Source: Myxococcus eversor (GTDB lineage: Bacteria; Myxococcota; Myxococcia; Myxococcales; Myxococcaceae). From it: a stretch of DNA of 64,000 bases. Shown piece by piece: positions 33,006 to 49,674 of the stretch (positions are counted from its first letter, which is position 1; every line of letters starts with the position of its first letter). The notes below the pieces were generated by a model. That model saw nothing but the letters and a program-made list of their open reading frames with translations, was not told where the DNA came from and made no database searches. The translations under genes and the position numbers were made by a program. Where the stretch lies: assembly GCF_010894455.1 (NCBI RefSeq), contig NZ_JAAIXY010000002.1:552962-616961 (forward strand), given 5' to 3'.

Positions 33006-33018
33006 CGGGCGCGGCGAC

Positions 33019-34413
33019 TCACAGCAGCGCGCGCCGCATCTTCCAGAAGGTCTCCTTGGCGGTGCGGAACGCCGTGGAGTCCGACGGGAGGAGCGTGCGC
33101 AACAGCTCCGCCGACTGCGTCTGGAGCGGCCTCACGCAGTGCGCCTCCACCTGGCCGCGCAGGAAGCCCACCGGGTCCCTGCGGCGGTACTCGGAGAAGT
33201 ACGTCTTCAGCTCGTTGCGCGTGCGGGCCTTGCCATTGTCCGCGTACTTGGCCACGTAGGGGCTGAAGTCGGGGTACAGCCGTCCCTCGCCGAAGTCGCC
33301 GTGCAGCGTCGTCTTCATGAAGTTGCCGATGAGCAGGTCATCGAAGACGCGGTAGCGCACGGCCGTCATCAGCGAGTTGCGCGGGGCCTCGAAGGTGATG
33401 CCCCGGCGGAAGCGACGGCGGTGGAATTCGATGACGTGGTCCTGGCCGCCCACGCGGAAGCGGAGGAAGTCGAGCACGGAGCCCAGGTGCTCAATCGCTC
33501 CGAAGTACTCGCGCAGCGTCCGGGCCTCGTCGGCCTCCAGCATCTCGCTCCAGTCGTCGCCGAACTCCTTCGGGTCCACTGGCAAGAGCGCGTGCTCCGG
33601 GGGACGGATGAGCTGCTTGTCGTCCTTGGAGAAGTCGCAGCGGATGAAGGCGGGCAGGAGCGTGCACGTCTCGGACTCGAAGCCCCGGCCGTAGTCCTCG
33701 AGCGTCGTCGTGTACTCGGAGGCCCACATGGAGTCGGCGCGCTGGTACTTGTGCATGGAGCTGAAGGGCACGAAGAAGCGCGCGCCGTAGAACTCCGCCT
33801 GCCGGGCGATGGTGCGCCCCACCGGCGTCTTCGCCGCGGCGTAGGGAATGACTCGCTGCCCGTCCTCGGTGAAGTAGTTGATCATGTCCGCGTCGCCGTA
33901 ACCGGACAGGGCCAGGAGGTATGACTCGTCATACCGGCGCACCATGCTTCGCACGAAGCGGCCCCAGCCCCGGTCGCCCGCGTCGTTGAGGTTGACGACG
34001 AGCCGCCCGTCCACGTCGACCAGGAGCACCGCGTCCTGGTTCATGTCGGGGATGCACAGGACGCGGATGCGCGGGGACAGCTGCGTCCACACGCGGTCCA
34101 CCAGCACGTGCACGTTGAAGCCCTGCTCGCGCAGGTCATCGCGGATGCGCCCGCCGAAGTGGTTGGGCACCAGAATCGTCTGCTCGCGCAGCTTCTCCAG
34201 CGACTCCGCGCTCAGGTGGTCCGGGTGGCCATGGGACAGCCACACGTACTGACAGCGCTGGATGGTGTCTCGCACCTCCTCGGGAATCTCGTGGGACAGC
34301 GTCCAGCTCCCGAAGTACGCGGCGCCATGAGTCCATGGGTCGGTGACCAGTACGGGTCCGTTGTCGTGGCAGATGAGTGTGGCGTTTCCGATTGTCTCGA
34401 ATCCGAGTTCCAT
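33019..34413 (-). CDS. MBL-fold metallohydrolase (UlaG-like)
   Basis: 464 residues. N-terminal metallo-beta-lactamase fold: LICHDNGPVLVTDPW, the metal motif LSHGHPDHLS, CIPDMNQDAVLLVD, then NLNDAGDRGWG. A long C-terminal part (about 250-464) with a Phe/Arg-rich region is not the standard MBL fold. The N-terminus resembles UlaG-like or diiron flavoprotein-like hydrolases. Substrate unknown. Start ATG at 34413 with GGGGGAG upstream. An inverted repeat GCGAGGGC/GCCCTCGC (34481-34511) lies about 70 bases upstream and may regulate it. Confidence 0.82.
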   Translation of the reverse strand: MELGFETIGNATLICHDNGPVLVTDPWTHGAAYFGSWTLSHEIPEEVRDTIQRCQYVWLSHGHPDHLSAESLEKLREQTILVPNHFGGRIRDDLREQGFNVHVLVDRVWTQLSPRIRVLCIPDMNQDAVLLVDVDGRLVVNLNDAGDRGWGRFVRSMVRRYDESYLLALSGYGDADMINYFTEDGQRVIPYAAAKTPVGRTIARQAEFYGARFFVPFSSMHKYQRADSMWASEYTTTLEDYGRGFESETCTLLPAFIRCDFSKDDKQLIRPPEHALLPVDPKEFGDDWSEMLEADEARTLREYFGAIEHLGSVLDFLRFRVGGQDHVIEFHRRRFRRGITFEAPRNSLMTAVRYRVFDDLLIGNFMKTTLHGDFGEGRLYPDFSPYVAKYADNGKARTRNELKTYFSEYRRRDPVGFLRGQVEAHCVRPLQTQSAELLRTLLPSDSTAFRTAKETFWKMRRALL

Positions 34414-34914
34414 CTTCCGCTCCCCCCTCGTGCTGCTGCTGCGGTTGCTCGCCATCGTGGTAGCTGGGCCGAAAGGTGACGCGAGGGCTCGGGGCGACAC
34501 AGTGCCCTCGCGGGCAGGGAAAAGGACTTCGCGCCCGGCAGGTTGCTCCGAGCGGTGAGCGAGAGAAGATGTTTTCCGCGAGTGTGCCGTCACCCGTGCC
34601 CACGCGAGGCGGTGACGCGGCCCGCGAGGGCACCAACGCCCCACTTGCGAGGGTGGACGGAAGCCGCCGGAGCACCCCGAGTCACCCGTCAATGGCGCGA
34701 AGCCGTGGGTCTGCTCGGCAGCCCTCGCGCGGGGGGAGACGGGCGAGTGAGCCCGTGGCACGCCCTCCCTTGCGTCGAGTGAGTGCCGTCCCGGGCGCGT
34801 GGCGTCCCGGGCCCATGTCCAGGAAGGCCCCGGTGCCGGTCCTCGCGAGCGTCCGAGCGTCTCGCGAGAGGCCTGGCGGTCAGCGCTTGCGAGCGGCTCG
34901 CGGGGGCCTGGCGG
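34414..34914. other. Intergenic region with repeated CCTCGCG motifs
   Basis: 501 bases between the MBL gene start and the Top3-RecQ stop. It holds a perfect inverted repeat GCGAGGGC/GCCCTCGC (34481-34511). TGCCCTCGCGGG occurs at 34503-34514 and its reverse complement at 34621-34632. CCCTCGCG recurs near 34722. It is likely the MBL promoter zone plus the 3' end of the helicase transcript. The right part carries the direct repeat listed separately. No gene seen. Confidence 0.45.
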
Positions 34915-34930
34915 TCAGCGCTTGCGAGCG
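34870..34930. repeat. 26-bp perfect direct repeat at the 3' end of the Top3-RecQ gene
   Basis: The 26 bases at 34870-34895 recur exactly at 34905-34930 (period 35). The second copy contains the last codons and stop (34915-34917) of the Top3-RecQ gene, and the first lies just past the stop. It looks like a recent local duplication of the gene end. Confidence 0.75.
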
Positions 34931-37900
34931 ACGAGCGAGAGAATCTGCGAGCCGTAGCGCTCGGTGAGCGCTGGCCCGACGCCGTGAATGGCCATCAGCG
35001 CCGCGCCATTCTCCGGTCGCGCCGCGGCGATGGCGCCCAGCACCCGGTCCGTGAGGATGCGGAACGCGGGCACCTTGCGCTTGCGCGCCTCCGCGAGCCG
35101 CCAGGCCTTGAGCGAGTCCACCAGCCCCGGAGGCGCCTCCACCTGCTCCGCCCCTCGAGCAGAACTCCGGCTCCGTGTGCCCCGGCCTTCCGTCACCACG
35201 GGCGCGGCGTCATCCAGCGCCACGCGGCGCCCCCGAGCCGCCGGGCTCTCCGACGCTGGAGCGCGAGCGGTCCACGCGCCGGAGTCGGCCCGCTCCGTGG
35301 CGCCTCCTCGGGACGCATTCCAGGAGGACCGCTGGTCGAAGTCCTCGGAGGGAGGAGACGCGCGCCACTGCCTGGCGGCGCTTGCCTCACCCGTGCCCCG
35401 TCCCTTGGCGCTCGCCCGGGTCGACCGCCTGGCTGTCTTTCCACTCGCCGCCTTGGTCTTCCCGCGTTTGCGCTTGGTCGCCTTCTCCAGCGCGAGCGGA
35501 AGGACGACGTGCTGGGGGTCCACCGCGCGGGTGCGCCGACCCTCGTCCGTCAGCGACACGCGTTGGAAGGAGATGACCTGTCCGTCCTTGTCGAACGAGT
35601 CGACCTCCAGTCGCGTCAGCCCGGCGCGCACCAGCCCCCCGACGAGCCGCTCGAAGTCGCGACGTGGGAGCGCATCCCCGAACAGCTCCCGGTGGAGCCG
35701 ACCCGTGGCCTGTCCATCGCGCTCCTGGAGCGACTCCAGGATGCGCTCCAGCCAGTGCCGCTCCGCCGCCGAGGGCTCCGCGAAGCGCAGCGTGGCGCAC
35801 GACTCCGGGGAGCACACGTCACACAGGCCACACGCCTCACCGGAGTCCTGGGTGTCACCGAAGTGGCCCACCAGTTGCTTCATGCGACAGCCGTGGGCCT
35901 CCGCATAGCGGCCCATCTGCTCCAGGTGCAGCAGCTTGCGCTCGCGCTGCGCGTTGTACGCGGCGGACCAGTTGGGCCGCCCGCGTCGCACCGTCTCGTC
36001 GGGCGTCATCACCACGCCGCCGTGAATCCACAACTGCTCCAGCGCCTTGTCGAAGACCTCCGGGTCTCCGCGCACGCGCCCCTGGAGCGCCTGCTTCGGC
36101 TCCGGCTCCCCGGACGTGGACTGGAACAGCCGCTCCAGCACGTAGGCCTCGGGATAGTCGCGCTTGTGGAAGAACTCGTGCGTGCGCCGGTCGATGTACG
36201 AGTGCAGCAGCACCGCGCGGGACGGTTTGCCGTCACGGCCCGCGCGCCCCAGCTCCTGGTAGTAGCCCTCCAGGCTCGCGGGCAGCGCGGCGTGGATGAC
36301 GGTGCGGACATCTGGCTTGTCGATGCCCATGCCGAAGGCGGTGGTGGCGACGATGACCTCCAGCGAGCCTCGGAGGAACTCGGCCTGGACCCTGTCGCGG
36401 TTCTCCGGCGGAAGTCCCGCGTGATACGCGGCCGAGGGGAAGTCTCCGGCCAGCATCTCCGCGAGCTGCTCGGCGTGCTTGCGAGTGGCGGCGTAGACGA
36501 TGGCGGGACGGTTCTCCTCGTCCTGGAGCAGCCCGTGGATGGCGTCGCCGCGAGCGCCGGGGTTCAGCTCGCGCACTTCGATGGCGATGTTGGTGCGGCG
36601 GAAGCCATGGATGAAGGTGCGCGCGCGGCCTCCCTCGCCCAGGAGGCCGAGCTGCTGGACGATGTCGCGTTGCACGTCGGGCGTGGCGGTGGCGGTGAGA
36701 GCCACCACGGGCGCGGGGCGGAGCAGCGGGAGCCGCGAGCCGAGCAGGCGGTAATCGGGGCGGAAGTCATGGCCCCATTGGGAGATGCAGTGCGCCTCAT
36801 CAATGGCGATGAGCGTGGGCGGACGTCGCGCCAGGAACTCCACGAAGCCCGGCACACCGAGCCGCTCCGGAGCGATGAACAGGAAGTCGAGTTTCCCCTC
36901 CAGGTAGTCGAAGCACACCTGTCGCGAGGTGGCCCTGTCTCGACCGGAGTGGATGCGGTCCGCCGCGAAGCCGAGCGACTGGAGCCGCAGCACCTGGTCT
37001 TCCATCAAGGCGATGAGCGGACTGACGACGATGGTCGTCCCCGCGCGAGCCAGTCCAGGGAGCTGGTAGCAGAGCGACTTGCCCGCGCCCGTGGGCATGA
37101 CGAGCAGCAGGTCCTCGCCCGCGGTGGCCGCGCGACAGACGGCCTCCTGGTAGGGGCGGAACTCGGAGAAGCCGAAGGCCTCTTTCAAGAGAGGACGGAG
37201 CCGGTCCGGCGGAGTGGGCGCGCGAGGCACCCGGTCGGGCCGCTGGCCCGGTGGTGGCGCGATCCCTCCGCGAGAGGACGATGTCCCGCGCGATGCACTC
37301 GCCCCCAACGTCCCCGGCCGGCGGGGCGTCATCGCTACACCTTCGTCTGGAAAGGCCGCGTTCTGTGCTCGGCGAGAGTTCGGTGCCGTGCCCGCGTCCG
37401 AGAACGACTCCGCGCGACGCGAACCAACTGCGCTCGAGTCCGAGAACGACTGGGACTCCGTGCGACGCGCACCGCCCGCGCCGGAATCCGAGAACGACTG
37501 GGTCTCGCGACGCGAACCACCGCTCGTGCTCAAATCCGAGAACGACTGGGGCTCCGCGCGCCGCGCACCTCCCGCGCTCGAATCCGAGAACGCAAAAGAC
37601 TCAGTCCGACGAGCACCGCCGCCCGCGCCCGACTCCGAGAACGCAAAAGACTCAGTCCGACGAGCACCGCCGCCCGCGCCCGACTCCGAGAAGGCGGCAC
37701 TCCGCGCACCCATCCCTCCGAGCAAGTCCGACGCTACGGGCCCATCCACGCGCTGGGCACCACGCCCCCCATTCACATCCACACCAGCGGCCTCGCCCAT
37801 ACGACGCGAGCCACCCGTGCTCGCCTCGGCGTATCCGCCACCCCCGGCCCCCAACCCCTCACGAAACGCCACTGTCCCCTCCCCGCCCCCATCCACCCTT

Positions 37901-39975
37901 CGCCCTGCCCCCGCGCTACGCGAAGTCGAGGCTCCAGCCCCGTACGGCATCGCCTGAGCCGGCCCCGCGGGCCCACGACCCACCACCTCGGTGACATACT
38001 TCTCGATGCCCCGGATGAACTCGTCGAGCCGGCCTTCCCCGCGCTCGATGCGCTGAAGCCAGGCTTCCCACTGGCCCGTCATCGCCGGCGTCTTCACGTC
38101 CGGGTGCACCACCTGGATGAGGTGCAGCCCCTTCTCCGTGGCCTCCAGCGCCTTCCCCGTGCGGACGAGGTACTCCCGGTCCAGCAACACCTCGATGATG
38201 GATGCACGCGTGGCGGGCGTCCCCAGCCCCGTCTCGCGCATCGCATCCGCCAGCTCCTTCTCGTCCAGCGCCCGGCCCGCCGTCTCCATCGCCGTCAGCA
38301 GCGACGCATCCGTGAAGCGCGGAGGCGGACGCGTGCGCTTCTTCACCGCCTTCACGTCCTCCACCTTCTGCGGCTGCCCCCGCTCCAACCCCGATGGCAA
38401 CGACTGAGGCTCGTCGTCCGGCTCCGCGTCCTCGTCACCCTTGCGTGAGTCGGCCTTCGGCTTCGGCGCCTTCTTGCCCCCGCCGATATCCAGCACCTTC
38501 CAGCCCACCCGCTCCACCTGGGTGCCCATGCTCTGGAAGCGGTCCACCACGGGCACCGCGCTCGCGAGCCCCGGCGACATCACCGCCGTCACCACCGTGG
38601 TCACCCGCCACACGTGGTCCTCGTGCCACGCCTGGAGCAACCGCCGGCACACCAGGTCGTAGACGCGCTGCTCGTCCGGAGACAGCCGCAGCCCCTGCGG
38701 AGACGTGGGCGTCGGGATGATGGCGTGGTGGTCCGTCACCTTCGCGTCATCCACGTAGCGCCGACCCAGGGGCCTCGCGCCCGTCCCCGGCGCCAGGTCC
38801 TCCTCGTACGGCCCGCGCACGGTGTTCACCACCTCGGGCAGCGTGTCCGCCACCGTCTGCGACAGGTGCCGGCTCGCGGTGCGCGGATAGCTCAAGAGCT
38901 TGTGCTTCTCGTAGAGCGCCTGCGCCACCTCCAACGTGCGCTGCGCGCTGAAGCCATACAGCCGGTTCGCGTGACGCTGCAGCTCCGTCAAGTCGTAGAG
39001 CAGCGGAGGAGCCATCTTCTTCTCCTCCGCGTCCAGAGACTCAATGGTGGCCCGCCCGCGCTTCACCCGGTCGATGACGGCCTGCGCATCCACCCCGTCC
39101 GCGTCCAGCCTCCGCGACTCGCGCACGCCCTCCATGCCCGGCGGAATCACCGGCTTGCCATCCGGCCCCGAGCGGAACCACGTCCCGTCATACCGGGCCC
39201 CCGCCGCCACGCCCTTCCCCTGCGGCGCGAAGGTGGCCACCACCTCCAGATAGTCCCGGGGAACGAAGCTGCGGATGGCCAGCTCCCGCTCCACCACCAT
39301 GGCCAGCGTGGGCGTCTGCACCCGCCCCACGCTCAGCATCTCCCCCTGCCCCCCGTGCGCCAGCGTGTACAGGCGCGACAGGTTCATCCCCACCAGCCAG
39401 TCCGCGCGGCTGCGGCCCATGGCCGCCGAGGCCAGCGAGTCGTACTCCCGCCCCTCCTTGAGCTGCCGGAACCCATCCCGGATGGCGCGCTCCGTCAGCG
39501 ACGACACCCACAGCCGCCGCACCGGCTTGCGGCACCCCGCCGCCTCATAGATGTAGCGGAAGATGAGCTCGCCCTCGCGGCCCGCGTCCGTGGCGCACAC
39601 CACCCCGCCCACGTCCGGCGAGGTCAGCACCCGGCGCACCACGTCGAACTGGGAGCGCGTCTGCTCGGAGACCACCAGCGGCCAGTCCCCCGGCAGCATC
39701 GGCAGGAGCGACCGGCTCCACCTCTTCCAGTCCGGTCGAATCTCGTGTGGCTGCGCCAGCCCCACCAGGTGGCCAATCGCCCACGTCACCACATAGCCAT
39801 TGCCGCGCAGGAAGCCGTCACCCCGCTCCTGCGCCCCCAGCACCCGGGCGATGTCGCGCGCCACGGACGGCTTCTCCGCCAGCACCGCCAATAGGGACGC
39901 ACGCCCCGAGCCCCGGCCCTCCATTCCGCCTCGCCTGTCCTCGCCGGGCGCCTCGCCCATCGCTTCCCACCTCAT
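34915..39975 (-). CDS. DNA topoisomerase III fused to RecQ helicase with C-terminal HRDC domain
   Basis: 1686 residues. N-terminal type IA topoisomerase: TOPRIM (AVLAEKPSVARDIARVLGA; CATDAGREGE), catalytic Tyr363 in LLSYPRTAS. Linker about 700-905 is Gly/Ser/Arg-rich with seven repeats. Then a RecQ helicase: Walker A GAGKS with Lys966, DEAH at 1059-1062, helicase motif GRAGRDGKPS, and RecQ Zn-site cysteines (CGLCDVCSPESC). A Lys/Arg-rich spacer leads to an HRDC domain (last 75 residues or so). RecQ and Top3 together dissolve double Holliday junctions (BLM/Sgs1-Top3). The ATG at 39975 is chosen for the GGAGGGG upstream; an internal start at MEGRG is possible. A fully intact frame over 5 kb argues for a functional fusion. 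Confidence 0.93.
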   Translation of the reverse strand: MRWEAMGEAPGEDRRGGMEGRGSGRASLLAVLAEKPSVARDIARVLGAQERGDGFLRGNGYVVTWAIGHLVGLAQPHEIRPDWKRWSRSLLPMLPGDWPLVVSEQTRSQFDVVRRVLTSPDVGGVVCATDAGREGELIFRYIYEAAGCRKPVRRLWVSSLTERAIRDGFRQLKEGREYDSLASAAMGRSRADWLVGMNLSRLYTLAHGGQGEMLSVGRVQTPTLAMVVERELAIRSFVPRDYLEVVATFAPQGKGVAAGARYDGTWFRSGPDGKPVIPPGMEGVRESRRLDADGVDAQAVIDRVKRGRATIESLDAEEKKMAPPLLYDLTELQRHANRLYGFSAQRTLEVAQALYEKHKLLSYPRTASRHLSQTVADTLPEVVNTVRGPYEEDLAPGTGARPLGRRYVDDAKVTDHHAIIPTPTSPQGLRLSPDEQRVYDLVCRRLLQAWHEDHVWRVTTVVTAVMSPGLASAVPVVDRFQSMGTQVERVGWKVLDIGGGKKAPKPKADSRKGDEDAEPDDEPQSLPSGLERGQPQKVEDVKAVKKRTRPPPRFTDASLLTAMETAGRALDEKELADAMRETGLGTPATRASIIEVLLDREYLVRTGKALEATEKGLHLIQVVHPDVKTPAMTGQWEAWLQRIERGEGRLDEFIRGIEKYVTEVVGRGPAGPAQAMPYGAGASTSRSAGAGRRVDGGGEGTVAFREGLGAGGGGYAEASTGGSRRMGEAAGVDVNGGRGAQRVDGPVASDLLGGMGARSAAFSESGAGGGARRTESFAFSESGAGGGARRTESFAFSDSSAGGARRAEPQSFSDLSTSGGSRRETQSFSDSGAGGARRTESQSFSDSSAVGSRRAESFSDAGTAPNSRRAQNAAFPDEGVAMTPRRPGTLGASASRGTSSSRGGIAPPPGQRPDRVPRAPTPPDRLRPLLKEAFGFSEFRPYQEAVCRAATAGEDLLLVMPTGAGKSLCYQLPGLARAGTTIVVSPLIALMEDQVLRLQSLGFAADRIHSGRDRATSRQVCFDYLEGKLDFLFIAPERLGVPGFVEFLARRPPTLIAIDEAHCISQWGHDFRPDYRLLGSRLPLLRPAPVVALTATATPDVQRDIVQQLGLLGEGGRARTFIHGFRRTNIAIEVRELNPGARGDAIHGLLQDEENRPAIVYAATRKHAEQLAEMLAGDFPSAAYHAGLPPENRDRVQAEFLRGSLEVIVATTAFGMGIDKPDVRTVIHAALPASLEGYYQELGRAGRDGKPSRAVLLHSYIDRRTHEFFHKRDYPEAYVLERLFQSTSGEPEPKQALQGRVRGDPEVFDKALEQLWIHGGVVMTPDETVRRGRPNWSAAYNAQRERKLLHLEQMGRYAEAHGCRMKQLVGHFGDTQDSGEACGLCDVCSPESCATLRFAEPSAAERHWLERILESLQERDGQATGRLHRELFGDALPRRDFERLVGGLVRAGLTRLEVDSFDKDGQVISFQRVSLTDEGRRTRAVDPQHVVLPLALEKATKRKRGKTKAASGKTARRSTRASAKGRGTGEASAARQWRASPPSEDFDQRSSWNASRGGATERADSGAWTARAPASESPAARGRRVALDDAAPVVTEGRGTRSRSSARGAEQVEAPPGLVDSLKAWRLAEARKRKVPAFRILTDRVLGAIAAARPENGAALMAIHGVGPALTERYGSQILSLVARKR
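37397..37694. repeat. Tandem repeat array coding the Top3-RecQ linker
   Basis: Seven copies of a unit starting TCCGAGAA at 37397, 37439, 37487, 37535, 37583, 37634 and 37685, with spacings of 42, 48, 48, 48, 51 and 51 bases. The copies at 37583 and 37634 are identical over 51 bases. All units keep the reading frame (Ser-Glu/Asp-Ser-Gly-Ala-Gly-Gly-Ala-Arg-Arg-Thr-Glu type), encoding about residues 761-860 of the linker. Confidence 0.85.
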
Positions 39976-40280
39976 GAAACCAGTCCCCTCCCGCCCACCC
40001 GCCACCACCCGGGAGCCAGCCCCGAGCCCACGTCTCGACCCTCTTCCCTACCGCGTCAGGCTGACATGGCCAGCCCCTCGCTGTCCCTACCCGTGACGCC
40101 CGTCCGCCGCCCGTCCAGCCGAGGAAGACCGCCCTCCGCCACCCCGCCCCATCCCCCGCGCGCCCGACGACCTCCCAGGTCACCGCACCGAGGGTGGAAT
40201 CCGGCACGTTCAGCCCGCCGCCAGGTCGCCCGGCAAGCTGGCGCGTTCGCGCAAGCGTTTGGCGCTAACGCGGAAAACTC

Positions 40281-40298
40281 ACTCTACCGGCTGAGCCA
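40281..40298 (-). other. tRNA-like fragment (D-arm)
   Basis: Read on the minus strand, 40298-40281 is TGGCTCAGCCGGTAGAGT, a near match to the conserved tRNA D-arm (TAGCTCAGTCGGTAGAGC type). The following bases do not form an anticodon stem-loop or a TPsiC arm (no GGTTCGAATCC-like motif), so it is not an intact tRNA. It is either a decayed tRNA remnant or chance. Confidence 0.4.
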
Positions 40299-40343
40299 GT
40301 ATGCCCTGGTCGACACGCGCCACGGCGCGGGTCTCACGGGGGG

Positions 40344-40745
40344 ATGCAGTCAACGATGGTGCGAAGGGAGAGACGAATGTCGCACGTCGCGCATGAGTCG
40401 GGCCAGCGGGTTCCGGGGGGAAGCGCGAGGCCAGACGGTGTGAAGCGTGGGGGGAGGGGAAGGGGAGTCACGGCCCGGAAGGCGGGGACTCGCATCAGCA
40501 GAGGGGAGCGCGCGAGCGCGTTGGAAGCACCAGAGGGGGACATCGCGGTACCCGAGCTGACCGCCTTCGCGGGGGCGAAGCGCAGACAGCTCGCGGTGCT
40601 GACGAAGTCCAGAGCACTGGGACTGCTCCGGGGGGAGATGGACCTTGTAACGCGGGTGGCGTCCATGCGCCCGCAGACGTTTGGCTGGGCGCAGACCCTG
40701 GCGCGATTGCGAGCGAGCTCGCGTCCCGCCGAGTTCTGGCCTTGA
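40344..40745 (+). CDS. Doubtful hypothetical ORF, 133 residues
   Basis: A basic, Arg/Ala/Ser-rich frame with moderately G/C-biased third positions. ATGs at 40344, 40356 and 40377 are all possible. A Shine-Dalgarno-like GGGGGG is too close to the first. A competing minus-strand frame covers the same DNA, and neither shows domain features. It is kept only because a strong + strand terminator lies downstream. It may be non-coding RNA or spurious. Confidence 0.25.
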   Translation: MQSTMVRRERRMSHVAHESGQRVPGGSARPDGVKRGGRGRGVTARKAGTRISRGERASALEAPEGDIAVPELTAFAGAKRRQLAVLTKSRALGLLRGEMDLVTRVASMRPQTFGWAQTLARLRASSRPAEFWP

Positions 40746-40849
40746 GCACGATTCAACGGGGTGTGGGTGCTTGGGGCACCGCGACATCCTGAAAGCAGAG
40801 CGGTTCGGCATGCGCACCGGGGGGCGCGCACGTTCGTGAAATCACAGCT

Positions 40850-40990
40850 TCGCGGGAGGGGTCCAAGGCCCTCCTGACACATGCAGGGCGGGTAGGAAGA
40901 TGGTGCCGCGGGGGCGGTGCCATCCGTGGATGGGGGACCCGGGGGTGACGCTCTTCAGAGGGGGAGAGCGAACCTGAGCAAGGGTCATAC
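40850..40990 (+). ncRNA. Candidate structured RNA preceding an orphan terminator
   Basis: Three clear stem-loops in a row: GGAGGG/CCCTCC (40855-40874), an 11-bp stem with two G-U pairs closed by a GGGG loop (40899-40924), and CGCTCT/AGAGCG (40949-40970). They are followed 20 bases later by the intrinsic terminator 40991-41034. Stem density, orphan location and terminator suggest a small RNA or a 3' UTR element. No known class (6S, 4.5S, tmRNA, RNase P, retron msr-msd) fits its motifs. Confidence 0.35.
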
Positions 40991-41034
40991 CGGGGGGTGC
41001 TCCGAGTTCATCGGGGCATCCCCCGTTGCTTTTT
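40991..41034 (+). terminator. Strong intrinsic terminator with U-tract
   Basis: CGGGGGGTGCTCCGA (40991-41005), loop GTTCA, TCGGGGCATCCCCCG (41011-41025): a 15-bp stem fully paired in the + strand RNA (two G-U pairs), followed by TTGCTTTTT (41026-41034). On the minus strand the two G-U pairs become A-C mismatches, so its orientation is clearly rightward although no certain rightward gene lies upstream. Confidence 0.72.
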
Positions 41035-41066
41035 CACGGGTCGCCACGGCTTTGCGCTCCGCCGCT

Positions 41067-42551
41067 TCACTCCACGCGCAGCGTCGCGGTGCCGGTGAGG
41101 GCGCGGTTCAGGGTGAGCCACAGCGCGTCGCCCGCGTCGTCCACGGAGGCGAAGTAGTCCGCGTCGGCGGCGAGCACCTGCTCGTCCAGCAGCACGCGTG
41201 ACGGCGGCGTGGACAGGGTGTAGCCGCGCAGCACCAGCACCGGGTGCTCCAGGGAGCCGCGGCCAGAGTCGAAGCGCAACACCGCGCGGTTGCCTGTCAC
41301 GCGCGCTTCCCACGTCGCATACACGGGGTTGTAGCCGGGCACGGCGAAGGGCACGGAGTCCGAGCGGCCGACGCCGCCGGGCCCTTGGGTGGCCACGGTG
41401 CCCTCGGTGGCGGACAGGCGCACGGCCTGCCAGGACTCGACCTCCGAGGCGCGCTTCAGCACCGGGTCCTCCGAGTGCGTCCCCAGCACCATGAAGACGG
41501 AGTAGCTCTGGTAGGGGTGGCCGGAGAGCATGCCGTCATCGCCGTAGCGCGCGTACTGGCGCCAGCCGAGCGCGCCGTAGTTGCTGCCCCAGGCCAGGCG
41601 ATGCGAGCGCGTCGTCGTGGGGAGCTGGTACTGGTTGAGCTGGTAGGTCCAGTTCCAGTCCTCGGGCAGGGGGCCATTGGCGGCGCGCTGTCCCCAGCCC
41701 TGTTGGTAGAACCAGTAGCCACCGGCGGGCTTCCGCAGCCAGGGCTGTGTCTGCACCACGCCCATCTCCGCGTCGGGCGCGGTGGTCCACATGCGGGTGT
41801 AGGGGACGACGTTGGGCTCGCGGTAGTCCCAGCCACTGGCCATCGTCACGGGGGAGGACAGCGTCACGAAGCGATGACGGTCTCCCCAGCCGAGCCCCGC
41901 GATTTCGGCGTTCGCGTTGCCGTCGAAGAGCAGGTCGCCATAGGGCGAGCGCACGTCCGCCTCCAGTGCGTCCGGCGGAATGCCCGAGACGTCGTGGGTG
42001 ATGGCGTAGAGCGGATGGTTCCTGCCGGTGGCGAAGAGGTAGTGGACGGTGACGTTGACGATGTGGCCGCCGAGCGGAAGGGGCCAGCGGAACTCGTGCA
42101 GCGCGTGGTGGCGTCCCTCGAAGAGGGTGCGGCCGGTGCCGGTGACGCCTTCCGTCCAGTTGCCCCAGGTGGCCCCGGCGCGCAGGTGACACGTCACCAT
42201 GCCCCAGCCGGGGACACCGTCGTTGGCGCCGTCGCAGGTGCGCGAGACGCCGTTCGTCTCGTAGACGTAGCGGCGGAGATAGCCACCGTGCCAGCCGGCG
42301 GGGTCCGCGGCGTCGTTGCGCACGAGGAACGCCGAGCGTGGCGCGCAGTCACTGTCGCGCCACGTGTAGCGGTCGGTGTGGAAGCCCTCCAGGTCCACAT
42401 CGCGCTCCAGGCTCAGGGGCACGCAGGGATGCGCCTGGCCGGGGCCCGCGTCGGGGTCGCCCTCCGGACGGACCTCCTTGCCACCACAGGCCGCGAGCGA
42501 CACGGCGAGCAGAACGACGGCGCTGTGCCTTCTGAACGACATGGACGTCAT
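41067..42551 (-). CDS. Secreted lipoprotein, hypothetical, 494 residues
   Basis: The start at 42551 has GGAGG seven bases upstream. The signal peptide (SAVVLLAVSLAAC) ends in lipobox LAAC. The mature protein is Trp/Gly/Tyr-rich (GYWFYQQGWGQRAANG; YRTARMWTTAPD-like strands), beta-rich and single-domain looking, with an N-terminal Cys-containing part (SRTCDGANDGVPGWGMVTC). No known family motif; the aromatic-rich, strand-heavy build suggests a carbohydrate-associated or surface protein. It is divergent from the AAA-PDDEXK gene over 57 bases, so the two likely share a promoter zone. Confidence 0.75.
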   Translation of the reverse strand: MTSMSFRRHSAVVLLAVSLAACGGKEVRPEGDPDAGPGQAHPCVPLSLERDVDLEGFHTDRYTWRDSDCAPRSAFLVRNDAADPAGWHGGYLRRYVYETNGVSRTCDGANDGVPGWGMVTCHLRAGATWGNWTEGVTGTGRTLFEGRHHALHEFRWPLPLGGHIVNVTVHYLFATGRNHPLYAITHDVSGIPPDALEADVRSPYGDLLFDGNANAEIAGLGWGDRHRFVTLSSPVTMASGWDYREPNVVPYTRMWTTAPDAEMGVVQTQPWLRKPAGGYWFYQQGWGQRAANGPLPEDWNWTYQLNQYQLPTTTRSHRLAWGSNYGALGWRQYARYGDDGMLSGHPYQSYSVFMVLGTHSEDPVLKRASEVESWQAVRLSATEGTVATQGPGGVGRSDSVPFAVPGYNPVYATWEARVTGNRAVLRFDSGRGSLEHPVLVLRGYTLSTPPSRVLLDEQVLAADADYFASVDDAGDALWLTLNRALTGTATLRVE

Positions 42552-42608
42552 CGAAGCCCCTCCAAGTCCATGCCTACCCAGGCGAAGGAGGCGTAGTACC
42601 TTCCGGAC

Positions 42609-44159
42609 ATGCCCCGCTGGTTCAACACCGCCGGTCCGTGCAATCCGGACCATCATTACATGCTGCCAGCCATGCGGCGGCTGCCCGAAGTGCGGCGGCT
42701 CGTCGAGCAGCAGGGCTACTTCGTCGTCCACGCGCCTCGGCAAGTGGGCAAGACAACGGCGCTCCTCTCGTTCGCCCGCGAGCTCACGTCGGAGGGCCGC
42801 TATGTGGCGGCCCTCGTCAGCATGGAGGCGGGGGCGGGTTTCCCCCAGGACACCGGCGCGGCAGAGGCCGCCATCCTCTCGAGCTGGCGACTCGCCACGC
42901 GCGCCCAACTGCCTCCCACTTCACAGCCTCCAGAGTTTCCGGAAGCACCGCCAGGCAATCGGGTCGCCACCGCGCTCGCGGCCTGGTCCGAGGCCACCGA
43001 CAAGCCCCTCGTCACGTTCCTGGATGAGGTCGACGCACTCCGCGATGGCGTGCTGGTCTCCGTGCTCCGGCAGCTCCGCGACGGCCACCGAAACCGTCCC
43101 GAGCACTTTCCCTCCGCCATGGCCCTCATCGGGCTGCGGGACGTGCGCGACTACAAGGTGTCCTCCGACGATGGAGACAGGCTGGCGACCTCCAGCCCGT
43201 TCAACATCAAGGTGCGCTCGCTCACCCTGCGCGACTTCACCGAGGACGAAGTCACGGAGCTCTACTCCCAGCACACCACGGACACAGGTCAGCGCTTCGA
43301 ACCCGACGCCCTCGCGCTCGCCTTCGAGCTCACCCAGGGCCAGCCGTGGCTCGTCAACGCCCTGGCCAAGGTGGCTGTCGAGGAACTGGTGCCCGAGCTG
43401 TCCCAGCCCATCCGCCGCGAGGATATCGAGCGCGCCAGGGCCATCCTCATCTACCGCCAGGAGACCCACCTGGACAGCCTCGCGGCGCGGCTGCGCGAGC
43501 CTCGCATCCGCGCCATCCTTGAACCGATGCTCGCGGGACAGCTCCTGGGTGACGTCCCCGAGGATGACCGCCGCTTCGCCGTCGACCTGGGTCTGCTGCG
43601 CCGCAGCGCATCCGGAACGCTCGAGGTGGCCAATCCCATCTACCGCGAGATTCTCGTCCGCTCGCTGGCGTCAGGCACGCGCGACACGCTCCCCTCCATC
43701 CAGCCCTCCTGGTTGAAGCCCGACGGGCGGCTGGACGTGGAGCAACTGCGAGACGCCTTCCTCGCCTTCTGGCGCCAGCATGGCGAGCCGCTCCTGGCCA
43801 CCGCGCCGTATCACGAGGTCGCGCCGCATCTGGTGCTCATGGCCTTCCTGCACCGGGTGGTGAATGGGGGCGGCACGATTGAGCGGGAGTACGCCATCGG
43901 TCGCGGGCGCATGGACCTGTGCGTGCGCCATGGGCCGGACACCCTCGCCATCGAAATCAAGGTCTGGAGGGACCGCGAGTCAGACCCGCTGACCGAGGGC
44001 CTGGAACAGCTCGACGGCTATCTCCAGGGCCTGGGGTTGGATGAAGGCTGGCTGATGCTCTTCGACCGTCGCTCGAACCAGCCCTCCATCGCCGAGCGCA
44101 CCCGGGCCGAACAGGCCCGGACGCCCTCGGGTCGGCGCGTCACCGTCATCCGCGCCTGA
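42609..44159 (+). CDS. AAA-type ATPase with C-terminal PD-(D/E)XK nuclease-like domain
   Basis: 516 residues. The N-terminus (FNTAGPCNPDHHYMLPAMRRLP) is typical of an uncharacterised ATP-binding family. Walker A HAPRQVGKTT, Walker B VTFLDEVDAL. A winged-helix-like middle leads to a PD-(D/E)XK-type end: YAIGRGRMDLCVRHG with Asp, then LAIEIKVWRD supplying the E-x-K. This AAA plus PDDEXK_9 (DUF1703) plan is widespread in bacteria and of unknown role; defence or genome-maintenance roles have been suspected for the group. No mobility genes flank it. Ends seven bases from a convergent gene. Confidence 0.82.
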   Translation: MPRWFNTAGPCNPDHHYMLPAMRRLPEVRRLVEQQGYFVVHAPRQVGKTTALLSFARELTSEGRYVAALVSMEAGAGFPQDTGAAEAAILSSWRLATRAQLPPTSQPPEFPEAPPGNRVATALAAWSEATDKPLVTFLDEVDALRDGVLVSVLRQLRDGHRNRPEHFPSAMALIGLRDVRDYKVSSDDGDRLATSSPFNIKVRSLTLRDFTEDEVTELYSQHTTDTGQRFEPDALALAFELTQGQPWLVNALAKVAVEELVPELSQPIRREDIERARAILIYRQETHLDSLAARLREPRIRAILEPMLAGQLLGDVPEDDRRFAVDLGLLRRSASGTLEVANPIYREILVRSLASGTRDTLPSIQPSWLKPDGRLDVEQLRDAFLAFWRQHGEPLLATAPYHEVAPHLVLMAFLHRVVNGGGTIEREYAIGRGRMDLCVRHGPDTLAIEIKVWRDRESDPLTEGLEQLDGYLQGLGLDEGWLMLFDRRSNQPSIAERTRAEQARTPSGRRVTVIRA

Positions 44160-44166
44160 GCACGCC

Positions 44167-45354
44167 TCAACCCGCGTTGGCGTTGCCCTTGTCGTGCTCC
44201 TGGTGCCACGCGGCGAGCACTTCCTTCTCCCGCTCCGGCTTGATGCCCGACTTCAGCTTCGCCTGCCGCTCGGGCGGCTCCGCGTTGAACCAGGCCACCG
44301 TGTCGCGGACCGTCTCCTCCAGCGGGCGGAAGGTGAGCCCCGCCGCCAGCGCCTTGTCGATGTTCACCTGCAACAAGCCCGCGTCCTCCCCCGTGGGCGA
44401 CACCCAGACCGGCATGTCACTGAAGGACTCCACCTTGTGCTTCTCCAGGAAGGAGGCGTGCGCCCAGATGAAGTGCGCGTCGCTCTTCAGCGCCTTCTTG
44501 CTGCGCTCCAGGAAGTCGCGCATCAACAGCGGCTTCTCGGGCCCCGTCGCCGTGTACTGCCCCGCCAGCTTCTTCTCCACGCCCAGGATGATGAACGCGG
44601 CCAGATCGCGCGCGTCGATGAACTGCGTCTGGTTCAGCCCCGTGCCGGGCGCGAGCACCTCGCCGCCCCGGGCCACGCGCACCGGCCAGTACGTGAAGCG
44701 GTCCGTCGGGTCATCCGGGCCGACGATGAGCCCCGGGCGCACGTTGAACACGCGGCCGGGCATCGCCGTCTCCGCGGCCTTCTCACACAGCGCCTTCAGC
44801 GCGCCGTAGTGCTTGTCCACATCCTCCGTCGTCACGTCCGTCACCGTGGCGACAGGCGCCGTCTCCGTCAGACCCGGCTTCGACGCGTCCTTGTAGACGG
44901 AGATGGTGGACACGAAGGTGTAGTGCCCCACGTTGGGCGCGAGCAGCTCCGCCGAGGCCTTCACGATGCGCGGCACGTAACCCGACGTGTCCACCACCGC
45001 GTCCCACTTGCGGCCCTCCAGCGCCTTGAGGCCCTCCGCCTTCGTCGGGTCTCTGTCCCCCTGGAGCTTCTCCACGTTCGGAAAGAGGCCCGGGTTCGTC
45101 TTGCCCCGGTTGAACAGCGTCACCGTGTGGCCCCGCGCCTGCGCGGACTCCACCAGCGCCGGCCCCAGGAACTTCGTGCCGCCGAGGATGAGGATGTTCA
45201 ACGGCGTGTCCGCCTTCGCGGCCCCGGCCCCCTGGCCCTGGGGACTCGGCGTCTCGGACGCACCACCCGAAGACCCCGAGGTGGCACAGCCCATGGCCCA
45301 GAGGGAGCCCACCGTCACCGCGCCTTGAATCAGGTCTCTGCGAGACAGCTTCAT
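44167..45354 (-). CDS. Tat-exported NAD-dependent epimerase/dehydratase-like protein
   Basis: 395 residues. The N-terminus has a twin-arginine motif (SRRDLIQ) and a lipobox-like MGC after the hydrophobic stretch, so it is probably exported folded and lipid-anchored. A Rossmann fold follows: ILGGTKFLGPALVE (Gly motif), later FVSTISVYKD and the SDR Tyr-x-x-x-Lys in HYGALKALCEK. This suggests an SDR or NAD-dependent epimerase acting in the periplasm. An extra-cytoplasmic cofactor enzyme with a Tat signal is uncommon. Substrate unknown. Confidence 0.85.
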   Translation of the reverse strand: MKLSRRDLIQGAVTVGSLWAMGCATSGSSGGASETPSPQGQGAGAAKADTPLNILILGGTKFLGPALVESAQARGHTVTLFNRGKTNPGLFPNVEKLQGDRDPTKAEGLKALEGRKWDAVVDTSGYVPRIVKASAELLAPNVGHYTFVSTISVYKDASKPGLTETAPVATVTDVTTEDVDKHYGALKALCEKAAETAMPGRVFNVRPGLIVGPDDPTDRFTYWPVRVARGGEVLAPGTGLNQTQFIDARDLAAFIILGVEKKLAGQYTATGPEKPLLMRDFLERSKKALKSDAHFIWAHASFLEKHKVESFSDMPVWVSPTGEDAGLLQVNIDKALAAGLTFRPLEETVRDTVAWFNAEPPERQAKLKSGIKPEREKEVLAAWHQEHDKGNANAG

Positions 45355-45447
45355 GTCGTGTCGTCTCCTGCTGCGACGTTCGTTTCAACCCCCGCCCCCC
45401 ACCCGCGGCGACGAGGAAACACTTCGAGGAAGACTCCGGACTCCACT

Positions 45448-46743
45448 TCAACGAGCCGCGGCATTATCGGAGGCCACGGGCTCAAGCGCACCCTCGGGCT
45501 CACGGGACATCCGCCGCTGCTCCCGCCCCAGGTACAGCGACACGCCGAGCCACAGCCCCGCCAGCGGCACCGCCGCCAATGACAACCCCGTCATGCCCAG
45601 GCCCAGCGCCGTGAGGCCCCCCTGCAACCACGCGCTCACCGTGTCGCTGCCCCGGTACACCACCGTGTCGATGAAGCTCTTGGACTTGTAGCGCGCCTCG
45701 CGGTCCACCGTGGTGAAGAGGATTTCGCGCGAGGGCCGCTCCAGCGCGTAGTGGCTGGCCCCTCGCAGCGCCTTGAACACCACCAGCACCCCGAGCACCG
45801 GCATCACCGCCAGCCCCAGGAAGCCCAGCCCCGTGAGCACCGGGGCCACCGCCAGCGCCGCGCCCAATCCCAGCCGGGAGATGACCCGCCCCGTGACGAG
45901 CGTCTGGATCGCCAGCGTCAGCAACTGCACGTAGAAGTCGATGTCGCCGAACAGCGCGGTGCGCGAGGCCGCGTCCTTGCCCACCTCCGCCACCAGCTTC
46001 ACCTCCTGGAAGTACAGGAAGGTGGACGTGGCCGCGTAGAGCAGCACCTGGAGCCCGAGCGCGAGCAGGATGGGCGACGCCACCAGGAGCCGCAGCCCCG
46101 CCAGCACGCCGCCGCCCACGGGCCCCTCCGCCGACGCGGGCTGATGCTGGACGTCCCGAGCCCAGCGGCTCAGCCAGCGAACGCACTGCGCGCTCACCTC
46201 CAGCAGCACCGCGGACACGAGGATGAGGTTCACCGGCCCCACCGGCTCCGCCAGGCGTCCCACCAGGAACGGCCCCACCAACATGCCCGTCGTCCCACCC
46301 GCGGCGATGAAGCCGAACAGCCGCTTGCCCTGCTCGCCGGCGAAGACGTCCGCCATGAAGCTCCAGAAGATGGAGACCACGAACAGGTTGTAGACGCTCA
46401 GCCAGATGTAGAAGACCCGCGCCACCGGCTCCTTCGCCACCCCGAACTTCAGCAGCACGAAGAAGGCGAGCAGGCTGACCAGGAAGAAGCGGTAGACGCG
46501 CGGCAGCACCACCCGCCGGGGCCAGCGCGCCACCAGCGCGGAGAAGGCCGGCACCGCCAGCAGCATGACGATGAACGTCGCGGTGAAGAGCCACGGCAGG
46601 CCCTTCACGCTGCCCGCCGTCCCCATCTCGTTGCGGATGGGACGCAGGATGGCGTAACCGCACATCAGCGTGAAGAAGTAGACGAAGGACCCGAGGACCG
46701 CGCGAACTTCCTCGTCACGTACATCCACGAATCGCTTGAGCAT
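45448..46743 (-). CDS. NTP/NDP exchange transporter-like protein (ADP/ATP translocase family)
   Basis: 431 residues with about 11-12 membrane helices. It opens with FVYFFTLMCGYAILRPIRNEMG, which matches the TlcC-type (COG3202) translocase pattern of polar residues in helix 1. The family exchanges cytosolic and external nucleotides in obligate intracellular bacteria and plastids; free-living members are of unknown role. The C-terminus is hydrophilic. ATG at 46743. It is followed 93 bases later by the Tat SDR gene, same strand, so possibly one operon. Confidence 0.75.
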   Translation of the reverse strand: MLKRFVDVRDEEVRAVLGSFVYFFTLMCGYAILRPIRNEMGTAGSVKGLPWLFTATFIVMLLAVPAFSALVARWPRRVVLPRVYRFFLVSLLAFFVLLKFGVAKEPVARVFYIWLSVYNLFVVSIFWSFMADVFAGEQGKRLFGFIAAGGTTGMLVGPFLVGRLAEPVGPVNLILVSAVLLEVSAQCVRWLSRWARDVQHQPASAEGPVGGGVLAGLRLLVASPILLALGLQVLLYAATSTFLYFQEVKLVAEVGKDAASRTALFGDIDFYVQLLTLAIQTLVTGRVISRLGLGAALAVAPVLTGLGFLGLAVMPVLGVLVVFKALRGASHYALERPSREILFTTVDREARYKSKSFIDTVVYRGSDTVSAWLQGGLTALGLGMTGLSLAAVPLAGLWLGVSLYLGREQRRMSREPEGALEPVASDNAAAR

Positions 46744-46842
46744 TGGCACGAAGTACCCGGCTGAACTCCAGCCCTTTCCGTGTATTCCCGAGCCCCGCGC
46801 CCGTCCAGTGGGACGTCACGCGGGGCCCGGCACCGACGCGGG

Positions 46843-48141
46843 CTACTTCGAGGCGAGCGCCTCGCGCAGGGTGGCTTCCACGCGGGGCAGGGCCTCCTGG
46901 ATTTCCGCCACCGACGTCGCGCCCACGGACAGGCGGAACCAGCCGGTGTCCTCGCTCAGACCGAACGCCTGGAAGGGCACCACCGCGAGGCTGGCCTTCT
47001 CCAGGAGCAGCTTGCGGATGTCGTCATTCGTCTTCAGGCCGCCCTTGCCCACCAGGTCGAACTGGACGGACAGGTAGATGGCGCCCTGCGGCGCGATGTG
47101 TCGCACCGGCAGCCCCGCCTCGCGCATGCGCGTCAGGCCCGTGTGCAGCACCTCCAGGCGCGCGTCCACGCGCTGGCGCATCTCCGTCAGGAAGGACTCG
47201 GTGGCGGGCACGTCGTCCAGGTAGCGCGCCACGGCGACCTGCTCCGCCTTGGGCGCCCACGCGCCGACGTGGCCGAGCACGTCCCGCATGCGAGCGATGA
47301 TGGCCGGCGGACCCACGCCCCAACCCACGCGCACGCCCGTCGCGGCGAAGGCCTTGGAGATGCCGTCCACGAACACGGTGTACGGCGCCACTTCCGGCAC
47401 CAGCTCCACCGGCGTCACGTGCTTCACCGCGCCGAAGCTCAGCACCCAGTAAATCTGGTCGTACATCAGGATGAGCGGCTTGCGGCCCTGCTTCTCCCGC
47501 TCGCGGTTCTCCGCGACGACGCGCTCGCAGATGGCGCCCAGCACGTCGGACGAAATCATGGTGCCCGTGGGGTTGAGCGGGCTGCACAGGCACAACAGGC
47601 GCGCGGTGCCCAGGTGCGGCGTGAGCTGCTCCAGCGTGGGCATGAAGCCGTGCGACGGGTCCGTCGTCACGACGACGCCCTTGGCGTTCATCATGTGGAC
47701 GTAGTGGTTGTTGTTCCACGACGGCACCGGGTAGACGACCGTCTCGCCGTCATCGAGCACCGCGCGGTAGGTGCCGTAGATGATGGGCCGGGCGCCGCCC
47801 GCGATGACGATTCCCTCCAGCGGATACTTCAGGCCCAGGGCGCGCTCGTAGAAGCGCTGCACCGCCTGGCGTAGGTCGAGCACGCCGTCGGAGGGCGGAT
47901 AGTTCGTCTCGCCCGCCTGGAGCGCGGTGGCGATGCCCTGGCGCAGGCCGTCGGGGATGGGGAACTCGCGCGGGCTGAAGTCGCCCACGGTGAGGTTGCA
48001 CACCTTGCGCCCCTTGGCGACGAGCTCACGGACTTCCGCGGCGATGCGGAGAATCTCGCTGCCAACGAGGCCTCGCGCCATCGTGCCAATGGAGGCGTCG
48101 TCCCGCGAGGGACGTGGGAGGGAGGTGAGGTCGAGAGCCAT
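46843..48141 (-). CDS. PLP-dependent class I/II aminotransferase
   Basis: 432 residues of fold-type I. Visible: NYPPSDGVLDLRQAVQRF, SPLNPTGTMIS, YDQIYWVL, and the PLP Lys in VDGISKAFAATGVRVGW. Aspartate or aromatic aminotransferase-like; substrate uncertain. The ATG at 48141 is chosen; the frame continues to 48429 through low-complexity sequence. Divergent from the secreted DUF1028 gene over 374 bases. Confidence 0.9.
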   Translation of the reverse strand: MALDLTSLPRPSRDDASIGTMARGLVGSEILRIAAEVRELVAKGRKVCNLTVGDFSPREFPIPDGLRQGIATALQAGETNYPPSDGVLDLRQAVQRFYERALGLKYPLEGIVIAGGARPIIYGTYRAVLDDGETVVYPVPSWNNNHYVHMMNAKGVVVTTDPSHGFMPTLEQLTPHLGTARLLCLCSPLNPTGTMISSDVLGAICERVVAENREREKQGRKPLILMYDQIYWVLSFGAVKHVTPVELVPEVAPYTVFVDGISKAFAATGVRVGWGVGPPAIIARMRDVLGHVGAWAPKAEQVAVARYLDDVPATESFLTEMRQRVDARLEVLHTGLTRMREAGLPVRHIAPQGAIYLSVQFDLVGKGGLKTNDDIRKLLLEKASLAVVPFQAFGLSEDTGWFRLSVGATSVAEIQEALPRVEATLREALASK

Positions 48142-48515
48142 GGGGAATCTGTCTCCGGTTCGTGCGCGTGAGGGGGAGGACGCGGGCTGCGGCCGGGCGC
48201 GGACCATACCCGCCACCCGGGCCCTTGTGGGGCGCGTCTGAAACTTCTGGGGGAGTGCCACGGCTACAATTTTCCCGGAAGCGGGATGCGCGGGGCAGCC
48301 AGGCCGGCCTGCCCTCCTCGGGCCGTCGGTCCTCACCCTGAATCCGGTGCTTGACGGCGCGCAAGGACCTCCGAGCCTTCCCGATATGTCTCGAAGGCGC
48401 GTCGCGTTCCTGGAGCCAGCAACCCACACCCTCCATTCCCAGACATGCGAGGCCTGCCCTGTGTCGAGCGACGCTTGCTCGGCCCCGGCGGAGCCCTGCG
48501 TCCCGAGGTACGTGC
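48142..48515. other. Divergent intergenic region
   Basis: 374 bases between the aminotransferase and the DUF1028 gene. A TACAAT box at 48265-48270 (+) is a possible -10 element for the rightward gene, but no good -35 sits 16-18 bases upstream. No gene or strong repeat seen. Confidence 0.3.
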
Positions 48516-49523: not shown

Positions 49524-49543
49524 AGTCCCTCGGGTGACGCGGG

Positions 49544-49568
49544 CCCTTCGCCGTGCTCGGGCGGAGGG
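49544..49568 (+). terminator. Terminator candidate after the DUF1028 gene
   Basis: CCCTTCGCC (49544-49552), loop GTGCTCG, GGCGGAGGG (49560-49568): a 9-bp stem with one G-U pair, 21 bases past the stop, followed by TCTGTCGTCTT. Moderate. Confidence 0.5.
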
Positions 49569-49674
49569 TCTGTCGTCTTCCCGTCATCATGTCCTCGGCG
49601 GGAGGCTGGCACCGCGAGCGCCGTCGTGAGAGAGGGAGTTCCTCACGGCCCTGTGGGCCGACAGGGGAGGAACG

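Follow-up and report, generated by a model that had tools for sequence, protein, structure and literature searches.

In a stretch of 64,000 nucleotides from Myxococcus eversor (here called the window), an intrinsic terminator at 40991-41034 of the plus strand raises two questions: which transcript does it end, and what might that transcript do? An earlier note, made from the sequence alone, regarded the terminator and the hairpins before it as an orphan element, perhaps a small RNA (sRNA) or a leader or UTR element. Our analysis leaves hardly any doubt that the region is a conserved, structured plus-strand unit. As judged by comparison with related genomes, this rightward unit is composed of a promoter-like block, a small ORF, a variable spacer and a structured RNA with the terminator. 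The idea of an sRNA or UTR element was thus correct in that a structured plus-strand RNA with a real terminator is present, but the element does not stand alone and forms the 3′ portion of a conserved unit with a promoter-like block and usually a small ORF.

Structured RNA and its terminator

The terminator stem (40991-41025) contains 15 pairs, 11 of them G-C, and is followed by the U-tract TTGCTTTTT. In four terminator scans that jointly spanned the whole window, no other site had as many pairs or as many G-C pairs (the runner-up in stem length had 12 pairs, 5 of them G-C), consistent with its previous description as the best terminator of the window. Terminator-like sites as a class occurred at or near the chance number (e.g., 5 found vs 4.5 expected in one scan), so only the strength of this site stands out. 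Among relatives, its G-U pairs were exchanged for A-U and G-C pairs (columns 165/187 and 169/183 of alignment A1). Because these alternating G-U pairs and the U-tract make sense on the plus strand only, the rightward direction assigned before is retained.

Three plus-strand stem-loops precede the terminator; one of them is the GGGG-loop stem of 11 bp that had been pointed out earlier. P1 (40849-40892) has an inner hairpin, GGAGGG-GUCCAAGG-CCCUCC, at 40855-40874, which is invariant within the genus and shows changes on both sides of its pairs in other genera. P2 (40899-40924) is the 11-bp stem, in which 5 pairs had both-side changes within the genus. P3 (40936-40986) consists of an outer stem, GACCC/GGGUC, and an inner stem with the loop CAGAGGGGGA; 3 pairs of the inner stem had both-side changes within the genus, as did all 5 pairs of the outer stem once 14 distant loci were added. 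The 189-nt plus-strand fold had a z score of -4.67, equalled by none of 200 shuffles, and a somewhat larger region (40800-41045) scored -4.31 on the plus strand and -2.86 on the minus strand.

The earlier note had named an absence of covarying base pairs as an observation that would count against the element; such pairs were found. The 26 genus sequences, aligned with MAFFT, gave 52 predicted pairs, of which 9 had both-side changes compared with 5.4 in shuffles (1 of 500 shuffles was as high), and 47 cells had such changes compared with 14.9 in shuffles and at most 11 with slid partners. The number of further pair types (26) was not above shuffles (25.9). In alignment A5, which contained 40 loci in 39 distinct rows (L088 was left out by the E-value limit), both-side changes were present in 38 of the 52 pairs and in 192 cells, compared with 17.2 pairs and 39.8 cells in shuffles and at most 18 and 49, respectively, with slid partners; because A5 was fitted to the structure, its count leans upward.

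As anticipated for the known RNA classes, no Rfam family matched the window at its gathering score. A search of 40200-41060 gave just two animal RNA matches, far below threshold, and seven related loci gave none at an E-value of 0.5. This strongly covarying structured RNA is one that Rfam 15 does not contain.

Distribution of the unit

The region 40220-41060 was matched in 26 of the 27 genomes of the genus, our own genome included, at a single place in each. Most of these matches were about 800 nt long, and the other genomes were 67-96% identical; in three more genomes of the family the match covered only about 48 nt. The one genome of the genus with no match to the unit (G015) has its topoisomerase III gene at the extreme end of a contig, and an assembly gap may explain the absence.

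RNA model R1, run with a limit of E ≤0.1, gave hits in 39 of the 96 family genomes; a small number of these hits were weak or incomplete. One R1 match (L093 in G120, E 0.043) was seen by eye to lie inside a ribosomal protein S1-like gene and was excluded from the distant set. At E ≤0.01, model R2 detected the unit in 44 of the order's 145 genomes, which belonged to five genera only: g1 (26/27), g8 (6/6), g12 (4/4), g15 (1/1) and g16 (7/7). Accepted R2 members scored 67-192 bits. The other 41 genera had no R2 match with filters on, a setting that may lose weak matches. Eight topoisomerase III loci (five from g26 genomes and one each from g18, g17 and g9), searched with filters off, gave no match better than E 0.17. 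By protein, 10 loci were found in named relatives, including Archangium violaceum, Myxococcus xanthus, M. qinghaiensis and Pyxidicoccus fallax. In addition, two weak R2 matches were located off the main locus (L118 and L119, at G101:C1:8899432-8899575 and 6771822-6771983, with E-values of 2.8e-4 and 0.004). The unit was also present in L099, a record titled Comamonas sp. KCTC 72670, and this myxobacterial unit suggests a wrong label.

Organization of the unit

The promoter-like block (40239-40330, plus strand) contains the motifs TGGCGC, CGCAAGC, TTGGCGC, GGAAAACT and CCAGTATGCC, and its putative role is deduced from conservation and position. A sigma-70 consensus scan of 32000-50000 found no promoter, so the assignment follows conservation instead; transcription probably starts just behind the block. 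Of 15 distant loci, 11 had GGAAAAC upstream of the RNA, and L081 kept the CGCAAGC and TTGGCG motifs; none of the promoter-block motifs was found in L086-L088. Among 25 genus loci, mean pairwise identity was highest in the structured RNA (0.83), followed by the promoter block (0.79), ORF (0.70), spacer (0.55) and leader (0.43); the flanking values were 0.51 upstream and 0.45 downstream of the unit. By eye, the minus strand near 40255-40310 has a tRNA-like look, but ARAGORN found no tRNA in the window and this reading was rejected.

The earlier note saw no convincing rightward gene upstream of the hairpins; a conserved plus-strand ORF (P0001, 40377-40745, 122 residues, ATG to TGA) stops 100 nt before them. 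A start ATG and an open frame of 116-149 residues were present in all 25 assessable genus loci (L013, whose contig starts inside the ORF, was left out of the ORF, G-run and conservation counts). Variability at the three codon positions of the genus loci was 0.161, 0.175 and 0.243, and dN/dS values of 0.26-0.82 in eleven pairs indicated moderate purifying selection; part of the ORF signal reflects a Gly-rich composition. Homologues in other genera share a common core, FAGAKRxQL, and the ORF was present in 16 of 18 distant loci, L115-L117 being counted for the ORF only. The two exceptions were L081, which has no ORF, and L085, which appears frameshifted. In the latter (G100, near locus positions 2163-2640), the apparent shift is of one base in a G run relative to close relatives and is possibly a sequencing error. 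Protein alignment A4 included 18 of the 25 genus proteins, near-identical ones being dropped, and 13 distant proteins, with L081 and L085 left out. All translated copies from g8 and g12 (L078, L080, L082, L084, L089-L092 and L116) end in GGIYSW, a C-terminus that is not found in the Myxococcus copies. No Pfam or NCBIfam model matched the small protein at its cut-off, and a profile search against PDB gave no match. Its predicted structure has two helices and a mean pLDDT of 52.

Behind the ORF lies the variable spacer (40746-40845, plus strand), followed by the structured RNA. An ORF frame could be recognized in 14 distant loci; in 12 of them the RNA model match began 4-54 nt behind the ORF end, and in the other 2 it overlapped that end, such that a separate sRNA promoter in those loci would need to sit within the ORF. 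One genome, G040 (L081), contains the promoter motifs, the RNA and the terminator, with about 110 nt from block to RNA and no ORF. Two close G runs, CAGGGGGATGTCAGGGGGAG, occur in its leader and a third in its terminator. This ORF-less copy argues that the RNA can be retained without the protein.

The divergent neighbour outside the unit (34915-40008, minus strand) combines, according to Pfam, topoisomerase III and a RecQ helicase with an HRDC domain in a single gene. Of the 26 genus loci, 23 have this gene next to the unit (the remaining three are on short contigs), as have 14 of the 15 distant loci. Three g12 genomes have a perfect intergenic match (L080:2084-2100, L082:3107-3123 and L091:2725-2741, the last equal to L035) to the Myxococcus LexA box, for which a passage of PMC9705874 gives the consensus CTRHAMRYBYGTTCAGS; by eye, the same 17-mer is also present in L116. 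Since these boxes are near the start of the topoisomerase III-RecQ gene, the gene may be under SOS control in those g12 genomes.

Enrichment of G runs

An array of 12 runs of at least five G (G runs) extends over 40338-40997 of the plus strand, whereas the minus strand has a single run within 40330-41034. The background for this analysis consisted of 30,880 overlapping windows of equal length, on both strands, from 40 stretches that cover 800 kb of our 11.4-Mb genome. No background window had more than 8 such runs or more than 4 runs of at least six G, of which the element has 6. Across the 64-kb window itself, 10 or more runs were reached only in windows starting at 40251-40401, i.e., on the element. 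Numbers of G runs were 11-14 in the 25 genus elements and 3-12 in 15 distant elements, with the fewest (3-6) in g15 and g16.

Among all 1024 5-mers, GGGGG was the most enriched in genus elements (18.4 per 705 nt vs 0.92, about 20-fold). GGAGG was far less enriched (3.1 vs 2.1 per 705 nt, about 1.5-fold), which makes a decoy for the anti-Shine-Dalgarno sequence unlikely. In all 25 genus loci, the leader, the ORF, the spacer and the RNA each contained at least one G run, whereas 0, 1 and 3 of the 25 had one in the promoter block, upstream sequence and downstream sequence, respectively (the downstream stretch being only about 33 nt). The runs were kept in leader and spacer, where the sequence is otherwise poorly conserved. 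The element also contains five hairpins of at least 4 bp with a GGGG loop (background mean, 0.12), one of which, CUUCGC-GGGG-GCGAAG at 40565-40580 of the plus strand, lies inside the ORF. Genus elements have 3-5 such hairpins; L081, L083, L086, L087 and L088 have none. We consider it very probable that the G runs are selected at the RNA level.

Complementarity to the small RNA Pxr

The G runs find their complement in loop UUCCCCCCCAC of Pxr, an sRNA that controls whether Myxococcus grows or turns to multicellular development, which it blocks; deletion of the loop of its stem-loop SL1, or a C to A change at the fifth base, relieves the block (Pxr sections of PMC5684412). According to the abstract of a study from 2025, its binding targets had stayed unknown; that study gives 25 regions predicted with TargetRNA3 and favours pxrA (MXAN_1079), with pairing mainly in the third stem-loop (PMC11928866). 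With a published primer (Table 1 of PMC5684412) we located pxr in our own genome, on a different contig from the unit, and in three others. The first hairpin loop of Pxr reads GGUUCCCCCCCACC. The 14-mer loop GGTTCCCCCCCACC was the same at all 54 pxr loci (83 copies, counted without the C-rich-hairpin filter), and in the six genomes searched it occurred nowhere but at pxr, with a single copy or, if pxr is repeated, five. Tandem pxr genes, with up to five copies, varying stems and a constant loop, were observed in g8 and g12 genomes (L166-L170 and L175-L178). Of the 96 family genomes, 89 had Pxr-like matches, among them every one of the 44 with the unit; all 16 g26 genomes have a Pxr match and no unit.

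When pairing with the Pxr loop was weighted by accessibility, the element had 15 sites at ≤-8 kcal/mol, compared with a mean of 0.85 and a maximum of 8 in 1,120 background windows. The number of such sites was 10-15 in the 25 genus elements and 4-11 in the 15 distant elements. At -6 and -4 kcal/mol, 1 and 3 background windows, respectively, were as extreme as the element, and this number was 1 for the summed score and 5 for the best site. A duplex of the whole RNAs, computed with their own folding ignored, gave a weak signal (-119.1 vs -100.3 ± 7.1 for letter-shuffled elements, 3 of 200 being as low).

The flanks of the loop were less informative. The base after a run was A, which the U of the loop would favour, in 59% of genus, 41% of distant and 29% of background cases; the base before it was T, which the A of the loop would favour, in 13%, 25% and 29%. 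With run length matched, the real Pxr flank ranked 24 (genus), 42 (distant) and 38 (all) among 256; with run length unmatched, it ranked 153 and 174. The complement of the full loop, GTGGGGGGGAA, is absent from our own element and occurs at two places in the genome, one of which is pxr read backwards. The C7 core matches but the flanks do little to discriminate, so the partner may also be another C-rich RNA or a protein. On balance, we regard Pxr as the rather probable partner, with pairing as a sponge a tentative proposal and pairing as a plain target unlikely.

No account of a Pxr sponge was found in the open-licence literature; one paper there combines Pxr with the word sponge, which appears only in the title of one of its references, on a GcvB sponge. 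The locus is not named among the M. xanthus sRNA papers listed in the same literature, and RNA terms had no match in PMC6791715, on the M. xanthus developmental transcriptome.

Proposed function and alternative explanations

A multi-site sponge for Pxr is our best mechanism, and a tentative one. Transcription from a promoter within 40239-40330 would yield a rightward RNA of about 720 nt that ends at 41034. This transcript would encode the small protein and, as comparative sequence analysis indicates, carry the three stem-loops and the terminator at its 3′ end, where the fold would terminate and protect the RNA. G runs, which sequence and folding place along the entire transcript and in part in accessible loops, would most likely pair with the invariant C7 loop of Pxr SL1, and a single transcript could hold several Pxr molecules. 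Pxr might additionally cover the G-rich ribosome-binding region of the transcript. The net effect would be titration of Pxr and easier entry into development. A stronger version, in which the unit is a dedicated Pxr antagonist whose promoter, upon firing, soaks up Pxr and licenses fruiting bodies, appears somewhat unlikely; it would draw on about a dozen G-run sites, some within codons of the small protein, and would make that protein dispensable, as suggested by G040.

The same complementarity could instead mean that the unit is an mRNA and that Pxr represses the small protein through the G-rich ribosome-binding region and further sites, i.e., that the unit is a target and not a sponge. C-rich loops of sRNAs commonly act at the ribosome-binding region, and the ORF is conserved. 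By our reading, 19 of the 25 genus loci (e.g., L014, L022 and L027) have a run of at least five G in the 18 nt that lead up to the ATG. However, the Shine-Dalgarno sequence in the window is AGGGAGA and not a G5 run, the sites extend across the ORF, spacer and 3′ fold, and G040 kept the unit without the ORF. The many sites and the G040 copy led us to prefer the sponge over simple repression of the small protein, which we consider unlikely. A similarly low probability is given to docking of an RNA-binding protein by the G runs, many of them GGGG loops closed by C-G, in which case the RNA would be a decoy or scaffold and the complementarity to Pxr incidental. The excess of GGGG-loop hairpins and the weak match of the Pxr flanks are consistent with docking, as is C before 46% of the runs, although the background value is 50%; but CsrA, the known protein of this style, has no match in our genome, and five distant loci have no GGGG-loop hairpin.

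An sRNA of about 190 nt, derived from the 3′ UTR and acting through conserved loops (UCCAAGG in P1 and AGGGGG in P3), would make the upstream runs secondary. A conserved structured 3′ end with a terminator is indeed present behind the ORF, and this part is the best conserved and covaries. Nevertheless, the G runs of the poorly conserved leader and spacer would go unexplained, and we regard this possibility as quite improbable. Less probable still is that the locus is a conventional protein-coding gene, its 3′ UTR structured and its G runs a matter of base composition only. The plus strand is G-skewed at the element, and when the synonymous codons of seven ORFs were permuted, the observed number of runs was reached in 0-352 of 500 trials, with the permuted mean exceeding the observed number in L020. 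On the other hand, when synonymous codons for the same seven ORFs were drawn according to their usage in four genes of the window, the observed runs lay above the mean, and 0-46 of 500 draws were as high. Both the G runs and the GGGG hairpins of the genus were above dinucleotide shuffles (0-6 of 100 as high), and the runs exceed the genome background and respect the transcript ends. The unit is a single-copy, deletable candidate partner of Pxr and is found only in genomes with a Pxr match, which makes pairing with the Pxr loop directly testable.

Comparison with known systems

Decoys of the CsrB/RsmZ type carry repeated short motifs (GGA) in hairpin loops. The unit resembles them in having many short motifs in hairpin loops, but its motif is a G run and CsrA is absent from the genome. 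A CsrA decoy was accordingly rejected: PF02599 had no match in our genome, whereas 3 of 14 control genomes did. SgrS/SgrT is a dual-function RNA. The unit likewise joins a small ORF to a conserved RNA on one predicted transcript (SgrS and SgrT are named in a passage of PMC5568312); it is unrelated to them, and its RNA part is located 3′ of the ORF and is far more structured.

Sponges of sRNAs (by title, the topic of PMC12559287, PMC8216469 and PMC9732341), some of which are derived from mRNAs, offer accessible sites complementary to the pairing region of the sRNA. Such sites are present here, namely the 15 reported above, with only a modest flank match. Unlike in known sponges, the many short G-run sites of the unit are spread across the leader, ORF and 3′ fold, and titration is a proposal. 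Hfq is said to be absent from the group of this genome (a passage of PMC5684412).

Pxr itself is, like the unit, a myxobacterial stem-loop RNA with a terminator, and their host genomes overlap. In M. xanthus it is about 108 nt long, carries a C-rich loop and is predicted to be transcribed from a sigma-54 promoter (PMC5684412, PMC5568312, PMC11928866 and PMC10217877), and pxr lies between nla19/pxrR and other genes (locus description in PMC5568312). In contrast, the unit is about 720 nt long, G-rich, contains an ORF and is adjoined by the topoisomerase III-RecQ gene instead of nla19/pxrR. Searching four pxr loci with model R2 and no filters gave at best 11 bits (E 0.046), so neither sequence nor fold is that of Pxr. 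The unit may be the partner of Pxr and not its relative.
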